Source: Dacryopinax spathularia (Eukaryota > Basidiomycota > Dacrymycetes > Dacrymycetales > Dacrymycetaceae). From it: a stretch of 64,000 nt of DNA. Under the pieces are notes generated by a model that saw only the letters and a list, made by a program, of their open reading frames with translations, was not told the origin of the DNA and did no database searches. This document shows, one piece after another, positions 10,736 to 22,323 of the stretch. Position numbers and translations under genes: made by a program. Within the stretch, counting starts at the first letter, position 1. Each line of letters opens with the position of its first letter. The stretch spans positions 372,001-436,000 of the forward strand of contig JBBPFI010000012.1 of NCBI GenBank assembly GCA_037974965.1. The letters run 5' to 3'.

Positions 10736-10743
10736 TCGCGCCC
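10736..10743. repeat. Left 8-bp target site duplication of the transposon
   Basis: TCGCGCCC lies directly before the left inverted repeat. The identical 8-mer lies directly after the right inverted repeat at 22316-22323. Confidence 0.85.
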
Positions 10744-10764
10744 GGAGGTAATTCCTCCGATGCC
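10744..10764 (+). repeat. Left terminal inverted repeat (21 bp)
   Basis: Begins GGAGGTAATTCCTCCG and is an exact reverse complement of 22295-22315. The outer 15 bases are themselves nearly palindromic. Inward of the 21 bp only weak similarity remains between the two ends. Confidence 0.9.
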
Positions 10765-11203
10765 CCCTCCGCGGAGGCGCGCTTCCCACAATCACCGCGT
10801 GTAGGCTGTACCTGACCGAGGGCAGGACAGGGTCTTCGAGGATGGCGGGACTAATAGAACGGGGAGGTATGTTTGATTATCTATCCTTGGCAGGGTTTTA
10901 GATTAGCTGTCACCGGGTAGAATAGAATGCCATACCTTTGTTCCAGATGACGTGAGCGACTGACCGTTCAGATAAGCTGTTGGGTCTGAAATGGGCCTAG
11001 GTACGGCCGGACGCGAAAGGGCCCCTAGGGCAGGTTATGTCATATGACCTGCCTTTGGACAAGGTTCCTTCCCGGCCAACGCTTCCGCGAGTCGTTGGTT
11101 CAGGAAAGGAGGGGAAGGAAGGGAAGGAGGGGAAGGAGGGGAAGGAGGGGTTTGAGGAGGGGATGGAGAGTGTCATAGTAGCAAATGTATTAGCATTACT
11201 TTA
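10765..11203. other. Left subterminal region of the transposon, no gene
   Basis: Non-coding. It contains an imperfect palindrome, GGCAGGT then TCATATGACCTGCC, at 11029-11054. A related palindrome, AGGTCATATGACCT, occurs at 21715-21728 near the other end, so this pair may be a subterminal protein-binding site. A G-rich stretch of aggaggggaagg repeats covers about 11103-11155. The dispersed GTGATGTGATGG motif is absent here. Confidence 0.45.
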
Positions 11204-11379
11204 AAGTGATGTGATGGTATCGGGCTGTTGTCTAACACTTCCTCACCTCTAAGTGATGTGATGGTATCGGACCAAAGTCCGAGGCCTCTGCTCTTGTAAG
11301 TGATGTGATGGTATTGGACCGAAGTCCAACACCTCTAACCCTCATGTGATGTGATGGTATTGGACCGAAGTCCAATACC
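11204..11379 (+). repeat. Cluster of four GTGATGTGATGGTATYGG motifs with hairpins
   Basis: Four copies in the same orientation at about 11204, 11251, 11298 and 11344, spaced 46-47 bp. Copies two to four run straight into an inverted repeat. The best is 11356-11379: arms GGTATTGGAC and GTCCAATACC, a perfect 10-bp stem with a CGAA loop. The third has one mismatch (arms at 11310-11319 and 11324-11333). The cluster lies just downstream of the stop codon of the 11452-13008 gene. Confidence 0.85.
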
Positions 11380-11451
11380 TCCTACCATTCGATACGGTAC
11401 TTAAACGGGGATCGCGTTACAAGCCATAACCAACCTTTATTCTCGTGGCTA

Positions 11452-13008
11452 CTAGTTGGCCTGGGACTGAGCGGCACCATCTCCTCCATCCTGCCCGCTC
11501 AACCCCACCGCGTTCATCGCCATCCCCAAGCCCAACACCTCCTTCATGACCCTCTCGGGCTCTTGGACGCCAGTATCGTCGAGGGTCTCTTTGAGTCCTA
11601 TAGCATGTAGTTAGTTTAATTTAGAAAATAGTAAGTAGAAAAAAACTTACCAAAGACGAAGGCGATCTTCAAGGCGTCCTTGCCATATGCCTTCAAGAAC
11701 TTCTTGCCGGACCCCTTCACCTTCTCCCAAGCGGCCCTCGCATTCGCCCGAAGCTGGTTGCCGTTCTCGAGGCGGAGCTGAGCGTCCGCGATCGCCTTCT
11801 TGCGCTCCTCCGCAGAACGCTCCTCCTCAGACAACTCCTCCCACTCCTTCTGCCTACCCAACATCGCCTCCGTCCACCCCTCCCTCATACCCTCTGCCCG
11901 CTTCTCCTCCAGAAAACGGGCATTAGCCCGTTTGTACGCCTCGTCGACCTTCTTATTCTCGCTGATCACAGCGAGCGTGCCGGCCACCAACCCTTCGATC
12001 TTACCGAGCGTCTTGGCGCGCTCCCCCTCGACGATGAGTTGAGCCGCGGTGGCATGACGAAGGTCGACCTTGGGCTCGCCAGACCGGTCGAACGTCTCCG
12101 GCTCCAGGCCAAGATGACGGAGGGCGTTGTCGTAGATCTCCTCCTCGGTTGGGACGTGATGGGCGGAGAGGAGCGGCCCTTCGGGGCTGACAGGGCTATC
12201 GGGAGGAGGGTCGGCCAGCGCGGGAGTGAGAGATATCTGGCCAAGAGTCAGTAAGATGACTCACCAGTCGGGCGAGGAAGGGATCCTCATCGCCCAATAC
12301 CATCACATCACTTAGATGTGAGAGGGTATTGGGTGACGACGCCCAATACCATCACATCACTTAGATGTGAGAGGGTATTGGGCGTCCAGGATGAGGGTAT
12401 TGGGCGGCTGCGCCCAATACCATCACATCACATATATGCAGCAGGTATCAGGCGAGCTCGCCCGATACCATCACATCACTCACCTGGGCAGTCTGGCCCA
12501 TCATCTCCATGAGACGCTCCTCCGTCAACGCCCCATCGCCATACCTCTCCTTGTTCGCCTTGAAGAGCATTTTGACGACATAGAGCTGCTCGTTGCTCAG
12601 GACGACATTCCCCGTCGTCTTGTCCCCCTGAGCGACACCCCCTCCCACAGCCTTCGCCCCGCTAGTCTCCCCCCCATCTCCCCCCGCCGATCCGACCACT
12701 TCGAGGCGGATCTTCTCGCCCTTCTTCTTCTTCGGGGACTTCTTCTTTTTGCCGTCGCGCTTGTTAGACGCTGGCACTTCTTTTCCTTTGCCAGAGTAAG
12801 CTGGCGGGCGCGCATTGACGTCGCTGTCCTCCTCGCCAGCGCTGGAGGACGTGGACATCTTCTCCCCCCCAAAGAGAGCGGAGAACGGCGCAGCCGCCTG
12901 CTTGGCGTCGGCGAGGAAGTTGAGGGTCGTCGTCCAGTCGCCTGCGGGCGTCAAGAGCGAGCCGTCGCTATCGTTGTCGTTATTATCGATGCTTGACGTG
13001 GTAGACAT
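11452..13008 (-). CDS. Transposon accessory protein 1, lysine-rich, unknown
   Basis: Exons 13008-12484, 12236-11651 and 11597-11452 join in frame to 418 residues. I do not recognise the family. The N-terminal third is Ser, Asp and Gly-rich. Around residues 85-100 there is a strongly basic run (KRDGKKKKSPKKKKGEKIRL) that looks like a nuclear localisation or DNA-contact region. The middle and C-terminal parts are predicted helical, with charged repeats such as EEERSAEERKKAIADAQLRL. Intron 1 (12237-12483) is unusually long for this window and holds four copies of the dispersed motif; intron 2 is short. It is divergent from the acidic gene at 13671. A role as DNA-binding partner of the transposase is only an inference from position and charge. 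Confidence 0.6.
12292..12480. repeat. Four motif copies inside intron 1 of accessory gene 1
   Basis: Copies at about 12292-12312, 12341-12360, 12412-12432 and 12460-12480, written on the + strand as CCCAATACCATCACATCAC or CCCGATACCATCACATCAC. The first two form hairpins: CCCAATACC at 12293-12301 pairs with 12325-12333 (9 bp perfect), and GCCCAATACC at 12341-12350 pairs with 12374-12383 (10 bp perfect). The host gene's 5' splice site reads CAG then GTGAGTGATGTGATGG, so the intron start overlaps a motif copy. Confidence 0.85.
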
Positions 13009-13670
13009 TCTTCTTGCTGAGGTGGTGGATGTAAATAGAGGAGAGGAGATCGCCAGCGTGACTTAACGATTTGGGTACAAGCGTTGCTACAACCGTGCAT
13101 CTGCCTCCGTCCGCAGCTTCTTCGGTTCCCGAAGTTGAGGTTCCCCTAACTTCGGGCTCGGTGGCAGCCTCGTGTTGACCTTGAGGCTCGGATTCTCGAG
13201 CGATAGAGACATTAATGAGGAGGGTTAAAGAGTGAGCATAGAGGAGGTATTGATAGAACAATAGTAGTGATGTGATGGTATCGGGTGCTCTGGAAGGTGG
13301 AGGTGAAAGTGCTATCGCCCCTGCAGGAGAGCCTTTGACTTGGAGCTGGGACTGAGACCCAGGTACCAATCGTTCTTGTCCATGAGCTTTTTCCTAGCTC
13401 CTTGTCCCAGATATAGCTGTAAATTCATTGTAGAGTCTTTTAGACAATGGAACTAACAATCACGTGATTTGCAAGACCTTGACGGATGCTGTGCTGGCAG
13501 CCCTTACGCTCGAGCTCATCGTCCGCAGTACCCCTCCTCGCCATCTCCCTGAACCACCAACTGCTGACTTGAACCGAACTCACCGAATTACCACTTCTGT
13601 AAGTATTTTTATTCATTTCTGTATTACTACATATACTGAATCATCCTAGAACTCTCGCCAGAGCGATTCG
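13009..13670. other. Divergent promoter region between two transposon genes
   Basis: Non-coding space between the starts of accessory protein 1 (minus) and accessory protein 2 (plus). It holds one motif copy at 13266-13285. I saw no clear TATA box, and I cannot exclude a small 5' exon of the plus-strand gene here. Confidence 0.4.
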
Positions 13671-14804
13671 ATGAACGAACGCCTGATAGGCAATCCGGAC
13701 CCCCCCTGGAGCGACCCAGGCGGCGACATGGAGATGGGTTGTGCTGTTATGGGTGAGCAGAACATATGCCACCGCAGTTAGAATTTCACTCACCTGCTGT
13801 CAGACGGCAATACCGACACCACAACCTATAACCATTTGGGCCCCCAGGGACAAGTAAGCGCAGTCCTTGGGGGCGAAGCCAATGTGGATGATCGCACCAA
13901 TGTCGAGGCCGAGGCTGTTTCCGACCTCGACAGCGAATCGATCCGCGCTGACGCCCGATACCATCACATCACTTTAGCGAGCGCCCGCCTGCGGGGCCTC
14001 GCGCCCGCTACCAGCCTGCGGGGTAGCGGTAGTGCTCGCCTGCGGAGCACTCCGGTCGCCGACACTGCGACCACCACTGAGCCGGCCTGTTCTGCAGGCT
14101 CAGACAACACCAACCTCACGGATCACGCCTCCATCGACCACGACGGCGCTTCCTCACTTCCTGCAGTCCCTGGGACGGAACGTGACGGGCCCGGGGCATC
14201 TGGTTTCCACCACCTCATTGCACGTAACTGTGCTGAGGTCAGCCACTTCAACGTTGGCATCCAGCCCGAGATCAGGAACAATGGATCCCTCACAGCACCT
14301 AGCTCTCCGGCACCGAGCTATCGCACATGGCCCTCCGACTCCGACCACATTGATCATCATATTGAGCAGCAGGGAAGTGAGGAAAACGAGGAGGAAGACG
14401 ATGATGGAGATGAGGACGACAGCGACGAAGACGACGAAGACGACAATGAGGAGGCAGCTCCGGACACCTGCTCAGAGGTTCTCCCGGCTTATCCTTACTA
14501 CGAGAGCCTCCCTCCGCCTTCCTACACTACTTTGGATCCCTACGCTCCCGTTCCCGCGGTCCCCACTCGTACCGTCTCCAGTGTCACCCCTAGGCCTATA
14601 TCGTCCGCGACGGCTTCTTCCCCTCAGCGTCCTTCCCTTCTTCCCTTCCCCCGTTGGAAGCCTGGCAACCAGCATCTACATCTTCCGCCTCTGACAACAC
14701 ACACGGCACCGCTCACATTTGGATGTACTGCCCACGCTACCCAGGGCACAGGAGGACTCAGGCCCTTCCACATGTCAACACGCTTTGTGGATATGCGTGC
14801 TTGA
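13671..14804 (+). CDS. Transposon accessory protein 2, acidic and proline-rich, unknown
   Basis: Exon 1 at 13671-13752 and exon 2 at 13804-14804 join in frame to 360 residues. I do not recognise a domain. A long acidic run (mostly Glu and Asp) covers about residues 210-235. It is followed by tyrosine and proline-rich motifs including LPAYPYYESLPPPSYTTL, which contains a PPxY motif that could recruit WW-domain proteins such as Rsp5-type ubiquitin ligases (inference). The rest is Ser, Thr and Pro-rich and probably disordered. A copy of the dispersed motif at 13953-13973 is read within the open frame as a YHHIT stretch, unless an unannotated intron removes it. A start further upstream is possible. 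Confidence 0.5.
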
Positions 14805-15310
14805 CCTTTGTATCCCATCATGTCAACTGAACTGGCTTGTCTCCTATGGTCTGGTGTAACTCTCCTCTCCCAACCATTTTCATCGCTCCCAACAGTCCCA
14901 TGTGCCTCATTCATTTTCTACCTAGGACGGATTACCGCTTTCTAAGTACATATCGAAAGCGTTGTAACTGTAGCTAGGAGGGACTATATGCCACTAATAA
15001 CACTCGTTCATGAATTTTGTTAACGGGATATCAATTCCTGGCATGGCCGACTCAGCTTTGCACATGTTGAGTAGAACGACAGACCTTCCTCGACCCTATA
15101 GGGGTTCCGCACCAACTCGCCAGCGTGGAGAGTACTGCGACTCTTCTGTTCTTATCAAGCAACCACATCCTATACTTGTCTTCAAGATTACCTGGGACAA
15201 TTGGAATTAGAAGGAGTGTGTCAGATTTAAAGAGTTGTGGAGTAGCAGGGGTCACGGTCAACGGGCGATAATGGTGCGCACAACTTACCTGACTTCATGT
15301 TGCGCGTACT
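14805..15310 (+). other. Space before the transposase, N-terminal exon not resolved
   Basis: Between the acidic gene and the first certain transposase codons. The transposase frame has an in-frame stop at 15290-15292 and no ATG between it and the conserved cysteine motif, so a small 5' exon probably lies here. I could not choose between several candidate ATGs. Confidence 0.35.
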
Positions 15311-18300
15311 GACATCTCGAAGCAGCGCTCTCGGTCGGCAAGTGGCAAAGTGAAGAAGCTCATCGTCCAGAAGGCAACCGAGTCCTGCATTTGTCGCCAA
15401 TGCAAGACACCAGCGAGGCCAGAAGGCCGGCTGTTCACGAAGGAGCAGCTGCGAACTCACCTTCGCTATGCTGCGTCTCGTAACGCATATCGAGCCCAGC
15501 CGTACGAAGATTCCTCCTCGCAGGGGCCTGAGATAGAACCAGAAGACCAGCAGTATACTCAGGAAGGGCATGAATACTTCGACGACGCCATGAACGCAGA
15601 TCCTTTTGAGCCAGGCTCAGAGGAATCCCGTACCGTTGGCGATTGTCGAACGAGGTCCGAGCCCTCCTTCGATGTACATCCACCGCAACTGCTTTGGCCG
15701 AACTCGAGCGAGGGGCAAGATCAGCTTGAGGATGGTGCTGGTCCTTCGCTCGATACCATCACATCACATACATGTGAGAAGATGTCCGACGAGTCGTCCG
15801 ATACCATCACATCAAGTCTCAACCTCTCAACTTCTTCTGTCACTCAGCCAACCCCACCCTCTTCCCCTCCTCCACCTCCTTCCAACCAGCCTCTCGCTCT
15901 TCCTCCTACAGAAGACAATGCTCCTGATCCCATGCAAGTGGACGGAGACTGCGAGGCATCGAGGACCTTCCAAGATACCGAGGACCCCGACTCCGGGATC
16001 TCCATCGCCGACTTGCGCATTCCCTTGTCGCCTGCTCCTCTGCCCAACACGCCAACGCAGGAGCCATGGCTCTGCTATCTAGGTGTACATGCCAATGCTG
16101 CAGTACGTGGTATTGTACTGCTCCTGCTGCATATGCACGCCCGATACCAACTACCTCACATCGCTTGCGCTTGCTTAGCAACGATGTTGTACACCCTTCT
16201 CGAGCACTGTTTCGTCTTGGCCTCGCCCAGCACCTTTACGCCTGCGACAGCTCCGCCCCGAACCCTCCGGACGATGTACAAACGGATGGGGATGTGGGAT
16301 CGTTTTGAAGTCAAAACGCTTTGCCCAGCATGCTGGGAACTACAAGCGCTGGACGAGGAAGAGCTGGACGCCGACCTCTTCGAGGACTTCGGACCTTCCG
16401 ACCAGACCAACTCCTCTCGAGACTGGCAACGCTTCTGCCGGCGATGCAAGGAACCTCTTTACGCCAAAGCAGCCAAATCTGGCTACATTCGACCTCGAAA
16501 GCAAGCCCCATACGACCTATTTTCTCTCCAGCTGACGGAATGTTTGGCACAGCCAGGATATGAAGACGCGTGCGAGAAGTATCTGGACGACAACGACACA
16601 GATGGCGTTTATACGCGCATACAGCAAGGCAGCGTTTGGAGGAACATGAAGTGCCCGGACGGCACTCGTTTCTTTCCACGTTCCCGAACAGAAGCTCTTC
16701 AACAGAGCGAGTTGCGCCTGGGAGTTCTGCTCTCCGTAGACTGGTTTAATCCGAATCAGTCCACGACGGCAGAGTCGCATTCATCAGGCCCGCTCTCCCT
16801 GTGCATTGCAAATTTACCACCTGAACTACGGTATGTTCCTAATTCGCTCCGTGCGTAACATTCGCTCAACCCCTCCAGCTTTCGTGTCCACAATCTCTCA
16901 CTTATCGGCATCCTCCCTGGGCCTCGCGAGCCAACGTGCGAGGAGCTACAACGCTTTCTCCGACCCTGCGTGGACGATCTATTACGCCTTTGGGAAGAAG
17001 GCATCGTCATCAAGACGCCCAAGCACCCACAAGGTGAGCCCTTTACCCAACACCATCACATCACACCAGACGTGTAGGTGTGTGGGCCCTTTGCCCAACA
17101 CCATCACATCACATCAGCTGACTGAAAAGAATACAGGACGCATCATTCGAGTCGCACTCTTGGCTGCGATCTGTGATCACCCCGGCCTTTGCAAGCTCTG
17201 CGGCTTCACAGATCAGCGGCACAATGCTCGGCCATGTACCCAGTGCGAAATCTCCCGCGCTGACATGTTCCAACAAGGATGGAAGGCAGAAGCATATCCT
17301 CTCAGGGACGGCGAACTGCACAAGCGCCGAGCCGCTCGAATGTACGCACTTCAGCAAAGCAACGCGCCAAAAAGCAAAATCGACGATTATTTGAAGCGAT
17401 ACGGCTGTCGGTGGTCGGAGCTTTGCCGGCTCCCCTACTTCGATCCGGTAACCATGGGTGTACTGGATCCCATGCACATGCTCTTACAAGGGTTGACGAA
17501 GACAACGTGGTACCATAACTGGGTGCAAGGCGGAAAGGAGCACGTCAAGGTATTGCGAGAGGCGACTAAGGCAGGAAAGAAGCGGGAGCTGGACGAGATC
17601 CATGAGGTTCTCAGGACGGTGCGTTCCTGGCTACATGCTTGATAGATTGGTGAAGCTAACGCTTGACTCAGTACGAAATGCCTTCTTGGTACGCCAGACT
17701 GCCCACCAAGGTCGGTTACCCCGCAGGAGGGAGCCTTACGTCTGATGAGTGGAGGGCTCTGGCTGTGGTTTACGGCCCCGCAGTGGTGCGTGAGGGAGGG
17801 TGTCGGGCTCGAAGTCCGACACCATCACATCACATCCCCTGCTCACTGCTGACTCGGCCTAGTTGCCTCCTATTCTTATCAAGGCTCATGAGCAGAGTCT
17901 GCTCGAAGATGAACGCAAGGCATTACGGGAAGAGATTTTGGAGGCGAAAAGACAGGCCAAGCAAGCACAGACGGTCCCTCTCCCGTCCAAGACAGAAGAG
18001 CATCTCCCTACGAACAGTGCCGACTCGCTCATACGCGTACACCGGGACACCGCGAAGAACTACTTGAAGCTCGCCACCGTACTGAAGATCTATATGCGCC
18101 GGGAGATCACTGAGAGAGATATCGAGCGGGCTTCCTCGGTGTACCTCGATTTCTTCGAAGAATATGTTCAGGTATGCCTTTCTGCTCGACACCATCACAT
18201 CACAGGCGCTGACGATTTCGATAGATCTATGGGCAATCCAATGTGACTCCAACTTTCCATTGGATCACCCATATGCCGGCCCAGATCCATAGATACGGCC

Positions 18301-19615
18301 CTGTCCATGGATTCTGGACCTTTCTCTTCGAAAGGTTGAACAAGGTCCTCAAGTCAATACAGACAAGCGGGCATAAAGGTGGAGTTGTGGAAGTGACTTT
18401 TGCCAGGGAATTCAAACGCGAGATCAGCTTGACCCGCATGGTAAGTTCGCGCCCACCAGGACTGTTCTCGCTCACTCTCTCCCAGTGCTCTGTGCTGGCT
18501 ATTCAGCAAAGCGACTGGCTGGCGAGATTCTTCGCCAGCCAGATCAAGAAGTACAGTCGCGACATTGCTCGAACGGGGACTCTCGCTGCTATCGCTCTTG
18601 AAGCCGAACAAGAAGCTGAAGAAGCTGGAGAAAGACGATGTGAGCGATCGCGAAATTGTATCCCTTCCGGCACCGGCAAGATGCAATTCCTCGAGGACAG
18701 TACTCAGAAGGCGCTGTTGGTCTGGTATGGCCGACAGTATCCCGATGTTCCTATACGATTTGGAGCCGACGGATCTGCGCCGTGGGGGAGTATTTTCTTG
18801 GCGAACAGAGCGAAGTATTTTCCAGAGCTGCGACTCGATGGCAAGCGCATAGTCACAGCCAACGAGGCCAAGCACAGCAAGTCGGACTCGCTCGTTTCTC
18901 ACCGAGTGTCCTCGGGTTTGCAGTGGGTGGGCGAGCTCAGAGGTTTATTTGAGCATCATCAGACAGGCATTGGGCGACCCCACACTTTCGCCGAGGTAGC
19001 TTGGCTGGTTCCTTTACAGAATACACCCAAGCACGCGGACTTGTATCGTGACTTGTGAGTACATTTCCACCAGATACCATCACATCACTGAGCCTCGAAC
19101 AGCCCAGAGCTCGAGGTCAATTTTTGGGAGTATTGCCGTTACCTTTCTTCCAGCGATGATTGGGAGCCAGACCGCCTGATTCTAGCAGAGGACATCGTGG
19201 GTCCTGCCGCGCGCTGCAAGGTAGAGATTGGCACGCAGACAATCTGGATCACTACGGGCATGAGCAAGGTGCGCATTCACGATTCCGCATTACCCAAGCT
19301 GCTTCTAACTAGTCTTGCTATGTGTAGAGCGGTCGATCATTATGAGCAAGAAGAAGGGGAGTATGAGTTTTTTTTCGATGGAACGTGTATGAAGAGTTTG
19401 AGGGGATGTTTGGATAGGTCTGCCTGTAGGGAGTTGAAGGACAATGAATGGGTGAGTGGTAATCCACGTGCCATAACTTGATGGTGCTTACTGGCGCCTG
19501 ATACCATCACATCACTAACATCATTGGGTAGATTCGTGCATCTCTCGCAGCGACGGGCGAATCATGCGAGCCACCCGCATGTCGACTCCTGGAGGCAGGC
19601 TGTCTACAACCCTGA
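15311..19615 (+). CDS. Tnp2-like transposase
   Basis: Large multi-exon transposase. The N-terminus has a cysteine knuckle (SCICRQCK), an acidic Pro/Ser-rich linker and two further zinc-type pairs (CPACWELQ, CRRCKEPLY). The core carries basidiomycete Tnp2 landmarks in order: LGVLLSVDWFNP, LPPELRFRVHNL then GILPGPREPT, the conserved acid in MGVLDPMHMLLQGLTKTTWY, and the DUF4218-like YGPVHGFWTFLFERLNKVLK. Introns that keep the frame: 16830-16878, 17034-17136, 17619-17671, 17786-17862, 18172-18224, 18441-18506, 19055-19102 and 19452-19531; five of these contain the dispersed motif. The stop is at 19613-19615. The start is uncertain, since no ATG lies in frame before the knuckle. No break was found, so it looks active. 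Its last exon overlaps the tail of the opposing gene. Confidence 0.85.
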
Positions 19616-21315
19616 AGTCTGGCGCGGTAGGGAGCTCGTTCGCCATCCACTTATCGTCGAGCATGAAAGCCCATACCGGCGTCGCCGTGAGAAGGGAGGA
19701 GGTCCGACCAATATCGACGCATTTACCTGCTCGAGTTCCGGCTCTCGATTTCAGGGCTGCCTTCTTCATGTGCTTCGCATGAACGTCCTGATACCACTGC
19801 CATACCTGCGGATGAAAGTAAGTGATCGGCATATATCTGATATATGGCTGACGCACCTCCAGGTCCATCCATTCGGGCCTCTTGATCTCTAGGACGCCGA
19901 ACGGCTCCTCGTCCCTCTCCTCCGTAGTTAACTTACCTGATTTGAACAGACTCTCTCTCCAGGCCGCGTTCTTCGTGTCGTCCTCGTCGCACGACCATTC
20001 ATCACCGACCCAGTCCTCATGCACAAGCGAATCGGCGATTGACTTGTCCAGCTTGTGTGTTTCGCAGAAGCTATCGATCGCTGTTTCCATCTGCTTGGCG
20101 CGCTATGGAAAGGTCAGCCTGCGATCGATACCATCGCATCACAGAAGACGTAGCAAGGTGTTGGACGACTGGGACCCGACACCATCACATCACAGCAGAT
20201 GTGCGAGGTTGCCCCACTAAAGGGGCTCGACACCATCACATCACAGGATGTGATGCTTCGGTGGGCGCGACTGGCATGGAGACAACACTCACTGTAAAGC
20301 GCTTCTGCGACCGACGCTGGGCGCTAGCCTTCCTCTTCTTCGACTCCCCGCCATCCTGCTCCGCCTTGGCCTGGTCGGTCCAAACGGATTTCAGATGCGG
20401 CCAAGTAGCGCGAGCGAGCTCCAACAGAACCGCGGGCTGGAGCCAGCGTTCTCGGTATTCCGCTGGGACATTATTCGGATGGAGCTGGACGAGCAGTAAG
20501 TGATGTGATGGTATCCGGCGCAATGTAGCTCACCTTTTCGTGGTCTAGGACCATCAAGACCGCCCTGGTTTGCAGCAACCGATTGGGAGCCGCGTTGATA
20601 TCGTCGTTGAAGTCCGGCCACAGGAGGTTGGGATCTGCCGGCTTCTGTCCGTAACCCAGGCAAGGCATCCTCTGGTTGACTTCATACCGCATGGCCTTGT
20701 ACATTTGGCTGCGGACTTGGCCCTATTTGTGAGGGTAAGCATCCGTATCTTGCGAACTGCTTGCTCACGTACCTGCAGATATGGCTTGATGGTCACCTCA
20801 TTGACGTCCAACTCGTCTTTCTTCAGCTTTGCTGGATTCGCGACGGTTGAGGAGGGCTGGACAGGGAGCATTGCTGGGTCAGGGTTTGTAACCGTGACCT
20901 TGACAGGTCTCTTCTGTCTCTTGGCCGGACGCTCGTGGACGATGGCTTCGACTAGCTTTAGTCGACGTTCCAGATCGCGAATGTCGGGCTCTGGGGTCGG
21001 ATCCGCCTGGGGATCTTGGGGCCGAGAGGATCTAGGATGGGAGAGGGCGGATGGGTGCGGAGAGGGACGCACAGTGGGTTCGAGTTGGTGGGGAGTGAGA
21101 GCGAGTTTGCTAGAGGGAGGATGGCATGGAGATAAGTGATGTGATGGTATCGGGACGCTGAAGACTCACTCAGTTGCAGGATCTTGACTGCCAGGCGTCG
21201 CGCGACCCGAAGAGAAGCTGTTCACCATGTCTCGGATCCTGGACCTATGCGGCTCTGGGAGACTTTCGATTGAGTCGAGCAACTCCGTTGCTTGGAGGTG
21301 CCTTTCCTCGGACAT
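19521..21315 (-). CDS. Transposon accessory protein 3, unknown
   Basis: Five exons (21315-21170, 21109-20773, 20722-20534, 20484-20293 and 20102-19521) join exactly to 481 residues. I do not recognise the family. There is a basic, Lys/Arg-rich patch near residues 100-125 (RPAKRQKRPVKVTV) and another around residue 275 (SKKRKASAQRRSQKRF), both nuclear-signal-like. A C-terminal globular part contains FGVLEIKRPEW; the E-x-K could fit a PD-(D/E)XK nuclease core, but I see no convincing partner Asp, so this is weak. Introns 1, 3 and 4 carry one, one and three copies of the dispersed motif. A TATA-like TATATAA lies about 60 bp upstream. The 3' end overlaps the transposase gene tail to tail by 95 bp. 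Confidence 0.65.
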
Positions 21316-22294
21316 GGCGAGCGGGGCGACACGAGAGAAAGGGATGACGGGCGTTGGGGGTGAATGGGGGCTTGGTTATATATGAGGTCGCCCGGGAAAA
21401 AAAAGGACTGGGTGGTGGCTTAAAGTAGGGCGCGGTCAGATGAACTGTACATACCTGAAAAGACGGAAATTTAGGTCAATCACACGGGGATTTTACACGG
21501 GCCGAGGAGACCATCAAAGATGGGCTGCGCTAGGGACGTAAAATCCCACTCTGTCGGAACTAGCCTGAGAAAAATATATATTAGGTGCAAAAGCCTATCC
21601 TACGAGGCTATAGTCAGGGCATCTGGCCTATGCCTTAGGATAGTAATAAAAACATCGTTTAAAACTACCTTAAATGTCCCAGGAGAGAAGTCCTGGGAAG
21701 CCTGCCCTGAGCCCAGGTCATATGACCTAGACCCGCCCTTTCAGGCCCTGGGGCAGCGAGACCCTACACGCGGTGAATGCCCCCTCCGGGGTCTATTTCC
21801 TCGGCTGCCCTTCGGCATCCCTATTTGGGACTTATTTCTAGGTAGTTCCCGGCCCATAAGTCTGCATTTATAAATTGAGTTTCTTTAAAAACAACAATAT
21901 CAGCATGCTCAGCCAGAGGAACTCTGTATCAACCAATAATGGGTGCTGCGGCAATCTGTGCTCCTCCGGCACTGTGGCTTGTTGAGAAGAAATGAGTTAG
22001 AGCTTAATTTCTGGGGCATTTTGCAGCTGGGAGTAAGCATCGGCAACCCCCAGCTTGATATTGGTACAGATCCTAAAATCACAAGTTCAGCATTGAGGTA
22101 CCTCTTAACTCAGCAAGTTTTATTTTAGAGCAGGGCACTTCGATTTAAGAACACCATTAGTTGCTATTATAATTGTTTTTGACTATCACTTATTGATGCT
22201 TACACACATTCTCAAGCTCCTTAACTGCGACGCGAGGGGCATTCTAGGCAAAAAGACCCCGGGAGGGCATTCTAGGAATTGCGCTCCCGAGAGA
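21316..22294. other. Right subterminal region of the transposon, no gene
   Basis: Holds the promoter of accessory gene 3 (TATATAA on the minus strand near 21372-21380) and then about 900 bp of AT-richer non-coding DNA. The palindrome AGGTCATATGACCT at 21715-21728 mirrors one near the left end. Two ATTCTAGG-type repeats flank the inner side of the inverted repeat (22250 and 22269). No dispersed motif copies were seen. Confidence 0.45.
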
Positions 22295-22315
22295 GGCATC
22301 GGAGGAATTACCTCC
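22295..22315 (-). repeat. Right terminal inverted repeat (21 bp)
   Basis: Exact reverse complement of 10744-10764, ending in GGAATTACCTCC at the outer edge. Confidence 0.9.
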
Positions 22316-22323
22316 TCGCGCCC
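22316..22323. repeat. Right 8-bp target site duplication
   Basis: TCGCGCCC, identical to 10736-10743 and directly abutting the right inverted repeat. Confidence 0.85.

Follow-up and report, generated by a model that had tools for sequence, protein, structure and literature searches.

Why should a transposon carry more than twenty copies of one short sequence of its own—most of them inside its introns, and none of them at its tips? The question is raised by a stretch of Dacryopinax spathularia DNA (contig JBBPFI010000012.1, positions 372,001 to 436,000; these 64,000 nucleotides are hereafter the window), in which a complete CACTA/EnSpm-like element with four genes, A to D, is strewn with a motif, GTGATGTGATGGTATYGG. 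In this paper, we compare the element with its relatives elsewhere in the genome. A clade of CACTA elements truly carries private, operator-like arrays at matching internal sites, and we have found no description of them. Our leading explanation, which we hold tentatively, is that the sites are operators for a protein encoded by gene A or gene B, most likely serving to protect the element from silencing.

At up to three mismatches, the window holds 23 copies of the motif, all between 11206 and 21153, where 0.07 would be expected and none of 100 shuffles reached 23; the rest of the window holds none at the same limit. The first copy lies 413 bp from the element's left end, and the last lies 622 bp from its right end. 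A first-pass annotation, made from the letters alone, had claimed essentially this—more than 20 copies over about 10 kb of one transposon, in both orientations, missing from both termini and from the other 52 kb—and it was right. Its estimates of where the copies fall (about 14 in introns, 4 past a stop codon, 1 between genes, and 3 in open frames, with 8 of 16 introns holding the motif) come close to those of our gene models, which put 15 copies in introns, 4 past the stop of gene A, 1 in the A-B interval, and 3 within open frames, with at least one motif in 9 of 20 introns. These introns are models with no RNA basis, drawn from splice sites and coding sequence and, for the transposase and gene D, from protein similarity across families; the gene finder, run per strand and region, has no way to read past a stop and would present a broken frame as an intron, and doubtful modelled introns do exist (for example, in the transposases of two relatives, C1_1213 and C5_1567). 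The element, its genes, and the motif copies are as follows.

10793-21775, plus strand: complete CACTA/EnSpm-like transposon, 10,983 bp, with CACCGC...GCGGTG ends
11206-11363, plus: four tandem motif copies, starting at 11206, 11253, 11300, and 11346 (spacing 46-47), in non-coding DNA 3' of gene A
11452-13008, minus: gene A, a 418-amino-acid (aa) model with exons 12484-13008, 11651-12236, and 11452-11597; fast-diverging; candidate motif reader
12237-12483, minus: first intron of gene A, holding four copies (12294, 12343, 12414, and 12462, minus)
13267-13284, plus: motif copy between the divergent genes A and B
13447-14804, plus: gene B, a weak model with main exon 13804-14804; acidic, with LPxY/PPxY toward the C terminus; candidate reader or partner
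13955-13972, minus: motif copy inside the gene B open frame
15293-19615, plus: gene C, Tnp2-type transposase with a PF02992 match; 5' end uncertain
15750-15815, minus: pair of motif copies within the low-complexity N-terminal region of the transposase frame
17034-17136, plus: transposase intron at aa 565, with two copies (17047 and 17095, minus)
17786-17862, plus: transposase intron at aa 764, with one copy (17816, minus)
18172-18224, plus: transposase intron at aa 867, 53 nt long, holding one copy (18186, minus)
19055-19102, plus: transposase intron at aa 1120, 48 nt long, holding one copy (19071, minus)
19452-19531, plus: last transposase intron or 3' region, with one copy (19498, minus)
19521-21315, minus: gene D, a 461-aa model with six exons, recognisable in 7 of 7 representative elements and one outgroup element
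20103-20292, minus: gene D intron, with three copies (20125, 20176, and 20227, minus)
20485-20533, minus: 49-nt gene D intron, with one copy (20500, plus)
21110-21169, minus: first gene D intron, with one copy (21136, plus)

Read directly, the last three of the tandem copies at the left extend into short inverted repeats. One further intron of the gene C model (16083-16178) is doubtful because reading frame and similarity continue across it.

With the gene order A (minus), B (plus), C (plus), and D (minus), the element fits CACTA/EnSpm by its Tnp2-type transposase, its CAC...GTG termini, and its 3-bp target duplication (AAT, at 10790-10792 and 21776-21778). The spliced transposase model matches PF02992, Transposase_21, at E 5.1e-17 and 62.2 bits (cut-off 28.6), and a description of fungal EnSpm elements, with CAC...GTG ends and a 3-bp duplication, agrees with it (PMC12730594). 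The same source names DDE catalytic residues, accompanied by C(2)C and H(3-4)H motifs, as a CACTA/EnSpm feature (PMC12730594), and CACTA elements are known from the basidiomycete Cryptococcus neoformans (PMC12810828). Outside the element, a 27-bp inverted repeat (93%) stands on both sides (10738-10764 and 22295-22321), perhaps left by an older insertion.

How private is the motif? The first-pass annotation had allowed that it might prove common outside this element family, and for the exact 18-mer the answer is that it is not: the 29.2-Mb genome has 11 matches, all 11 of them in the window element. The 12-mer core, GTGATGTGATGG, has 37 matches (21 in the window element, 7 in a partial relative on C17, 1 in a relative on C10, and 8 elsewhere), and the variant pattern GTGATGTGATGGTGYYGG, at up to two mismatches, has 52 (22, 11, 6, and 13 in the same order); none of those last 13 lies near a transposase match, and two of them are 3 kb apart on C2.

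The relatives came from a genome-wide transposase search, which led to further loci and to a set of ten full-length elements, the window element included, of 10.3-11.7 kb. A terminal pair with a perfect 3-bp duplication is present in 10 of the 11 regions tested (the partial C17_355 has none), and two pairs of elements are about 99% identical, which suggests recent activity. Each element has its own motif by a blind count of repeated 10-mers, with 14-23 copies per element, and the ten full-length elements represent six motif types.

GTGATGTGATGGTRTYGG: the window element and C17_355
GTGATGTGAATACCGGACGA-like: C10_933
TGTGTAGTTGTACCGACCG: C1_1213
GTGATGTAGTTGTGCTGGACG: C2_741, C12_886, and C3_380
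TGATGTTGTTGTGTTGACCGG: C5_1521 and C3_2360
GGTGAAGTATTATGTTGGCGC: C5_1567 and C17_612

Searched exactly across the genome, the cores of four further types have 36, 30, 23, and 15 matches, with none outside their own elements; counts for the C10 type are local, not genome-wide. A matrix of motifs against elements is diagonal save for three matches of the window motif (at up to two mismatches) in C10_933. By eye, the types bear a resemblance to one another, with a GTGATGT-like left part and a right part with GG.

Related elements carry differing motif sequences, and a comparison of positions between elements finds them at matching places. We counted 138 copies in seven representatives (leaving out the near-duplicates C3_2360, C3_380, and C17_612 and the partial C17_355), with mismatch limits that varied by family and with extra inverted copies in C10_933 standing outside the count. 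Modelled introns hold 75 of them, where their length predicts 21.7; exons hold 31, where 87.6 would be expected; and 32 are intergenic. Five copies in C5_1521, where the gene finder reports no gene B, are intergenic in this count; with that gene B taken as an open frame, the figures become 75 intronic, 36 exonic (89.8 expected), and 27 intergenic (26.5 expected). Ten site groups, assigned by hand, recur at homologous places, nine of them in 7 of 7 representatives and one in 6 of 7.

Group 1: left non-coding region, plus
Group 2: gene A intron, minus
Group 3: between A and B, plus
Group 4: gene B, minus
Group 5: N-terminal part of the transposase, minus
Group 6: transposase intron at aa 565, minus (the group found in 6 of 7)
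Group 7: transposase intron at aa 867, minus
Group 8: C/D junction, minus
Groups 9 and 10: two gene D introns, plus and plus

Orientation is largely kept across families. The exceptions are inverted pairs at the left site (C1_1213, C2_741, and C12_886), in the gene A intron of C10_933, and at aa 867 (C10_933 and C1_1213), together with one extra minus copy at a gene D site of C10_933. C5_1567 has no aa 565 site and has many copies around a transposase intron at aa 513; beside a copy near that intron, a long G run differs between C5_1567 and C17_612, which are 99.5% identical. We also noticed, by eye, short GC-rich hairpins upstream of the gene B copies. Agreement in orientation shows that the sites have been inherited in place; taken alone, it is no proof of function.

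C12_886 and C3_380 are 91% identical overall, and motif copies outside exons differ at 1 of 180 bases (0.6%), as compared with 168 of 1551 (11%) for other intron sequence (p 2e-7 for motif versus intron), 157 of 1491 for intergenic sequence, and 494 of 7049 (7%) for exons; in exonic copies of the motif, there is 1 mismatch among 100 aligned bases. Between C12_886 and C2_741, the mismatches are 12 of 180 in the motif, 417 of 1363 in introns, and 1926 of 6797 in exons. All of these figures carry a mild bias, because the sites were located in the first place by their likeness to the family motif. In the latter pair, six paired sites differ at a mean of 3.5 of 28 letters and non-paired sites at 6.1, a difference that, in a small sample, speaks for sites inherited in place rather than often copied from one to another.

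Which protein does the motif follow? C2_741 and C12_886 share a motif, and their proteins are 94% (A), 90% (B), 58% (C), and 39% (D) identical. Motifs differ between the window element and C10_933, and there the figures are 27% (A), 33% (B), 66% (C), and 45% (D). From both pairs, motif type appears to go with A/B and not with the transposase or gene D, an association that is seen in one informative comparison and is not conclusive. Within the first pair, C2_741 (C2:735000-754999) and C12_886 (C12:880000-899999) are 92% identical over the A/B half and about 67% over the transposase half, which suggests that an accessory module has been exchanged between elements.

By similarity to the window proteins, C and D are supported in 10 of 10 elements and A in all except the C5_1567/C17_612 pair, weakly in several. 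Leave-one-out profiles for seven families always find C and D, and at E <0.01 they recover A in five of the seven families and B likewise in five; C5_1567 has an array, yet these profiles find neither its A nor its B, and both are named there by position only. Consistent with a link to A/B, the partial C17_355 (C17:351000-360999) carries A, B, and ten good copies of nearly the window's motif, without a clear C or D. A weak gene A match (E 0.009) lies at C3:1604275-1604688, away from any transposase match. One terminal 14-mer, searched genome-wide, has eight matches, seven at ends of known elements and one isolated; the 10-kb stretch ending just past the isolated match holds no relative, this being the only terminal sequence searched, and short non-autonomous relatives may therefore exist.

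The transposase search also yielded four outgroup loci, of which one whole element and one 9-kb stretch were examined.

C2:727236-739398: outgroup CACTA element with CACTGC/CACCGC ends and an AGT duplication

This element has C and D, and in it the profile search finds no A or B, and there is no comparable array, which lends weak support to the A/B link. Its long left-hand open frame (597 codons) is unmatched by the A or B profiles. The second locus, a 9-kb stretch on C13, carries C and, by profile, neither A nor B, and its count of similar 16-mers is 5; the same count is 12-15 in six elements with arrays and only 6 in the partial C17_355, where they occupy few separate places.

What, then, are the sites for? 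Of the three options that the first-pass annotation had offered, the one with the most support is that an accessory protein binds the sites; the evidence, while not conclusive, points to A or B. We suggest, as the most probable reading and still as a provisional one, that the motif is an operator for the A or B protein, with anti-silencing as its likeliest purpose. Each family would have its own site sequence and a matching reader, which would recognise its own family only, and that reader, bound at some ten conserved places over all four genes, would keep the element unsilenced and expressed. The preference of the sites for introns and intergenic DNA may reflect cost: a fixed sequence of 18-24 bp would burden the element least there. 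The role is modelled on that of VANC at VANDAL elements and of TnpA at the Spm promoter; protein binding, the choice between A and B, and the anti-silencing outcome are all things that we infer. There is probably something to resist: the genome has C5 DNA methylase domain matches (C7:158-164 kb) and matches to the Piwi domain at four loci (some of them containing in-frame stops, which introns or decay could explain), which suggests that the host has silencing machinery.

An AlphaFold model of gene A exon 2 predicts two long helices (pLDDT 76), which would be compatible with a dimer. Gene D of the window has no Pfam match up to E 1 and no relative up to E 1 in a Protein Data Bank (PDB) profile search; no gene D member rises above the Pfam cut-off, and one of five has a sub-threshold DUF3884 match (E 0.084). 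Gene B is distinguished by LPxY/PPxY motifs, 10 of them in 2267 aa over six models, as compared with 1 in 2615 aa for A, 2 in 7854 aa for C, and 2 in 3449 aa for D; they occur as well in the C5_1521 gene B frame and in C17_355, and every family examined has them. Most families also have an LRGSPVADT-like peptide in gene B.

PY-type motifs (LPxY/PPxY) bind the WW domains of NEDD4/Rsp5 ligases, and one can imagine a bolder version of the proposal, which we consider unlikely. That is, these elements might have evolved, independently and outside plants, a self-licensing code in which family operators at some ten ancestral sites are switched in step with A/B, and in which B draws a host NEDD4/Rsp5-type ubiquitin ligase to the marked element, along whose length silencing factors would be cleared away.

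Several observations weigh against an operator read by A or B. The link to A/B rests mainly on one pair of comparisons, in which A and B are not separable. No recognised DNA-binding domain appears in the accessory proteins: Pfam gives nothing for the window A up to E 1, the A of C2_741 has only a sub-threshold PD-(D/E)XK match (E 0.023), the exon 2 model has a pTM of 0.43, and the best match in a PDB profile search with that exon is at E 0.28. The outgroup element has up to six dispersed similar 16-mers, slightly above the controls (5, 5, and 3), and its lack of A and B is not established because A and B escape detection in C5_1567 too. One exonic motif copy of C12_886 is absent from C3_380. 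Finally, the VANC motif is 9 bp long and mostly tandem, whereas the motif here is 18-24 bp, partly palindromic, and mostly dispersed.

Of the rivals, the one that fares best is that these are transposition sites of the TnpA type, an accessory protein on the motif helping to assemble the transposition complex and the sites simply being spread over the whole element. We regard this as rather improbable and worth taking seriously: the transposase is Tnp2-type, the termini are CACTA-like, and plant CACTA elements have subterminal repeats, 12-20 bp long and in many cases palindromic, that diverge by subfamily and have poorly conserved binders (PMC2613891). The outermost copies (239-422 bp in from the left terminus, 599-767 bp in from the right) even fall partly within the subterminal zone of soybean Tgmt*, which reaches up to 732 bp (PMC2613891). 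However, only 24 of the 138 copies lie within 800 bp of an element end, and none lies within 239 bp; the remainder are found throughout the element at matching places, so the first-pass claim that these are not ordinary subterminal transposase sites stands across all seven elements. Moreover, the outgroup element ends in the same way, also with a 3-bp duplication, and lacks a comparable array.

A second rival keeps the binding protein and drops the silencing: the reader would repress or activate the element's own genes, as in copy-number control, or act at an enhancer or boundary. The evidence for binding is identical to that for the operator proposed above, and the copy between A and B is there in 7 of 7 representatives. 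We judge this explanation unlikely because simple promoter control should need no set of some ten conserved sites in introns and 3' regions.

Could the motif instead work in RNA, as a sequence or hairpin in transcripts that governs splicing, export, or escape from small RNAs? Its abundance in modelled introns would fit, as would the ability of many copies to form stems with their flanks: 43 of 138 have a palindromic extension (inverted repeat score of at least 7), as compared with 1-5% for shuffled flanks. However, the motif runs in the sense direction of the transcript in A, in the antisense direction in C, and in both directions in D; some copies fall within open frames or in the space between genes; and a search of the window element found nothing at Rfam gathering scores. 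The palindromes, combined with mixed transcript orientation, favour a DNA-binding dimer over an RNA signal, and we think a role in RNA quite improbable; the splicing signal that the first-pass annotation had listed is set aside as unlikely, given this mixed orientation, the matching placement of sites, and their conservation. Its remaining option, a small parasitic repeat that spreads inside the element and survives best in introns, we set aside as very improbable: close spacing, often 41-53 bp, does occur at some sites in most elements (many other copies are single), but ten site groups recur in place and largely in orientation despite differing motifs, and the letters evolve more slowly than exons.

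VANDALs are Mutator-like plant elements, and the element here is CACTA-like, with a Tnp2-type transposase in contrast to theirs. In Arabidopsis VANDAL21, the protein VANC21 binds a 9-base motif that is enriched in the non-coding parts of its own family, introns included (PMC5735166), and related VANDAL families have other motifs, which evolve together (PMC5735166, PMC10398659). The first-pass annotation, which knew of no described family with such a pattern, was not quite right here: VANDAL/VANC shows the same kind of pattern (PMC5735166). As far as those sources go, the likeness extends to a family-private short motif in introns and non-coding parts (31-36 of our 138 copies are nevertheless coding), to motifs that differ between related families and change together across an element, and to a fast-evolving accessory protein. 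Pfam scans for VANC-type domains (DUF1985 and DUF287) found none in A or D and none in gene B, which was scanned as one open frame only.

Plant CACTA elements (En/Spm and Tgm) offer the other comparison. Their subterminal repeats are bound by TnpA-like proteins with little mutual similarity (PMC2613891), and TnpA activates a methylated promoter (PMC1636069, PMC10398659). The present elements share with them, on those accounts, the superfamily, often palindromic repeats that differ between subfamilies, and readers that would be little alike; their repeats cluster near the ends, whereas most copies here lie further inside, in introns and between genes. The system, as read from its sequence, thus resembles VANC in where the sites are and TnpA in the type of transposon and of site. 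A third precedent is fungal: EnSpm and Plavaka elements with TET/JBP genes, also with CAC...GTG ends and 3-bp duplications, are proposed to escape methylation-based silencing (PMC12730594). Unlike those elements, A, C, and D here show no TET/JBP domain in Pfam scans, and the passages of PMC12730594 consulted mention no private motif array. The open-licence literature, a scope outside which most subscription papers fall, gave no report of fungal anti-silencing motifs or of internal repeats in fungal CACTA elements.

What would it mean if the proposal were true? The readers could serve as family-specific chromatin tools, and the elements would offer a clean system for watching a DNA-binding protein and about fifteen dispersed sites change together, with matching positions that allow comparison family by family. 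Above all, sequence-specific anti-silencing by transposons would have arisen at least two times—in the VANDALs of plants and in these CACTA elements—and might thus be a general strategy.

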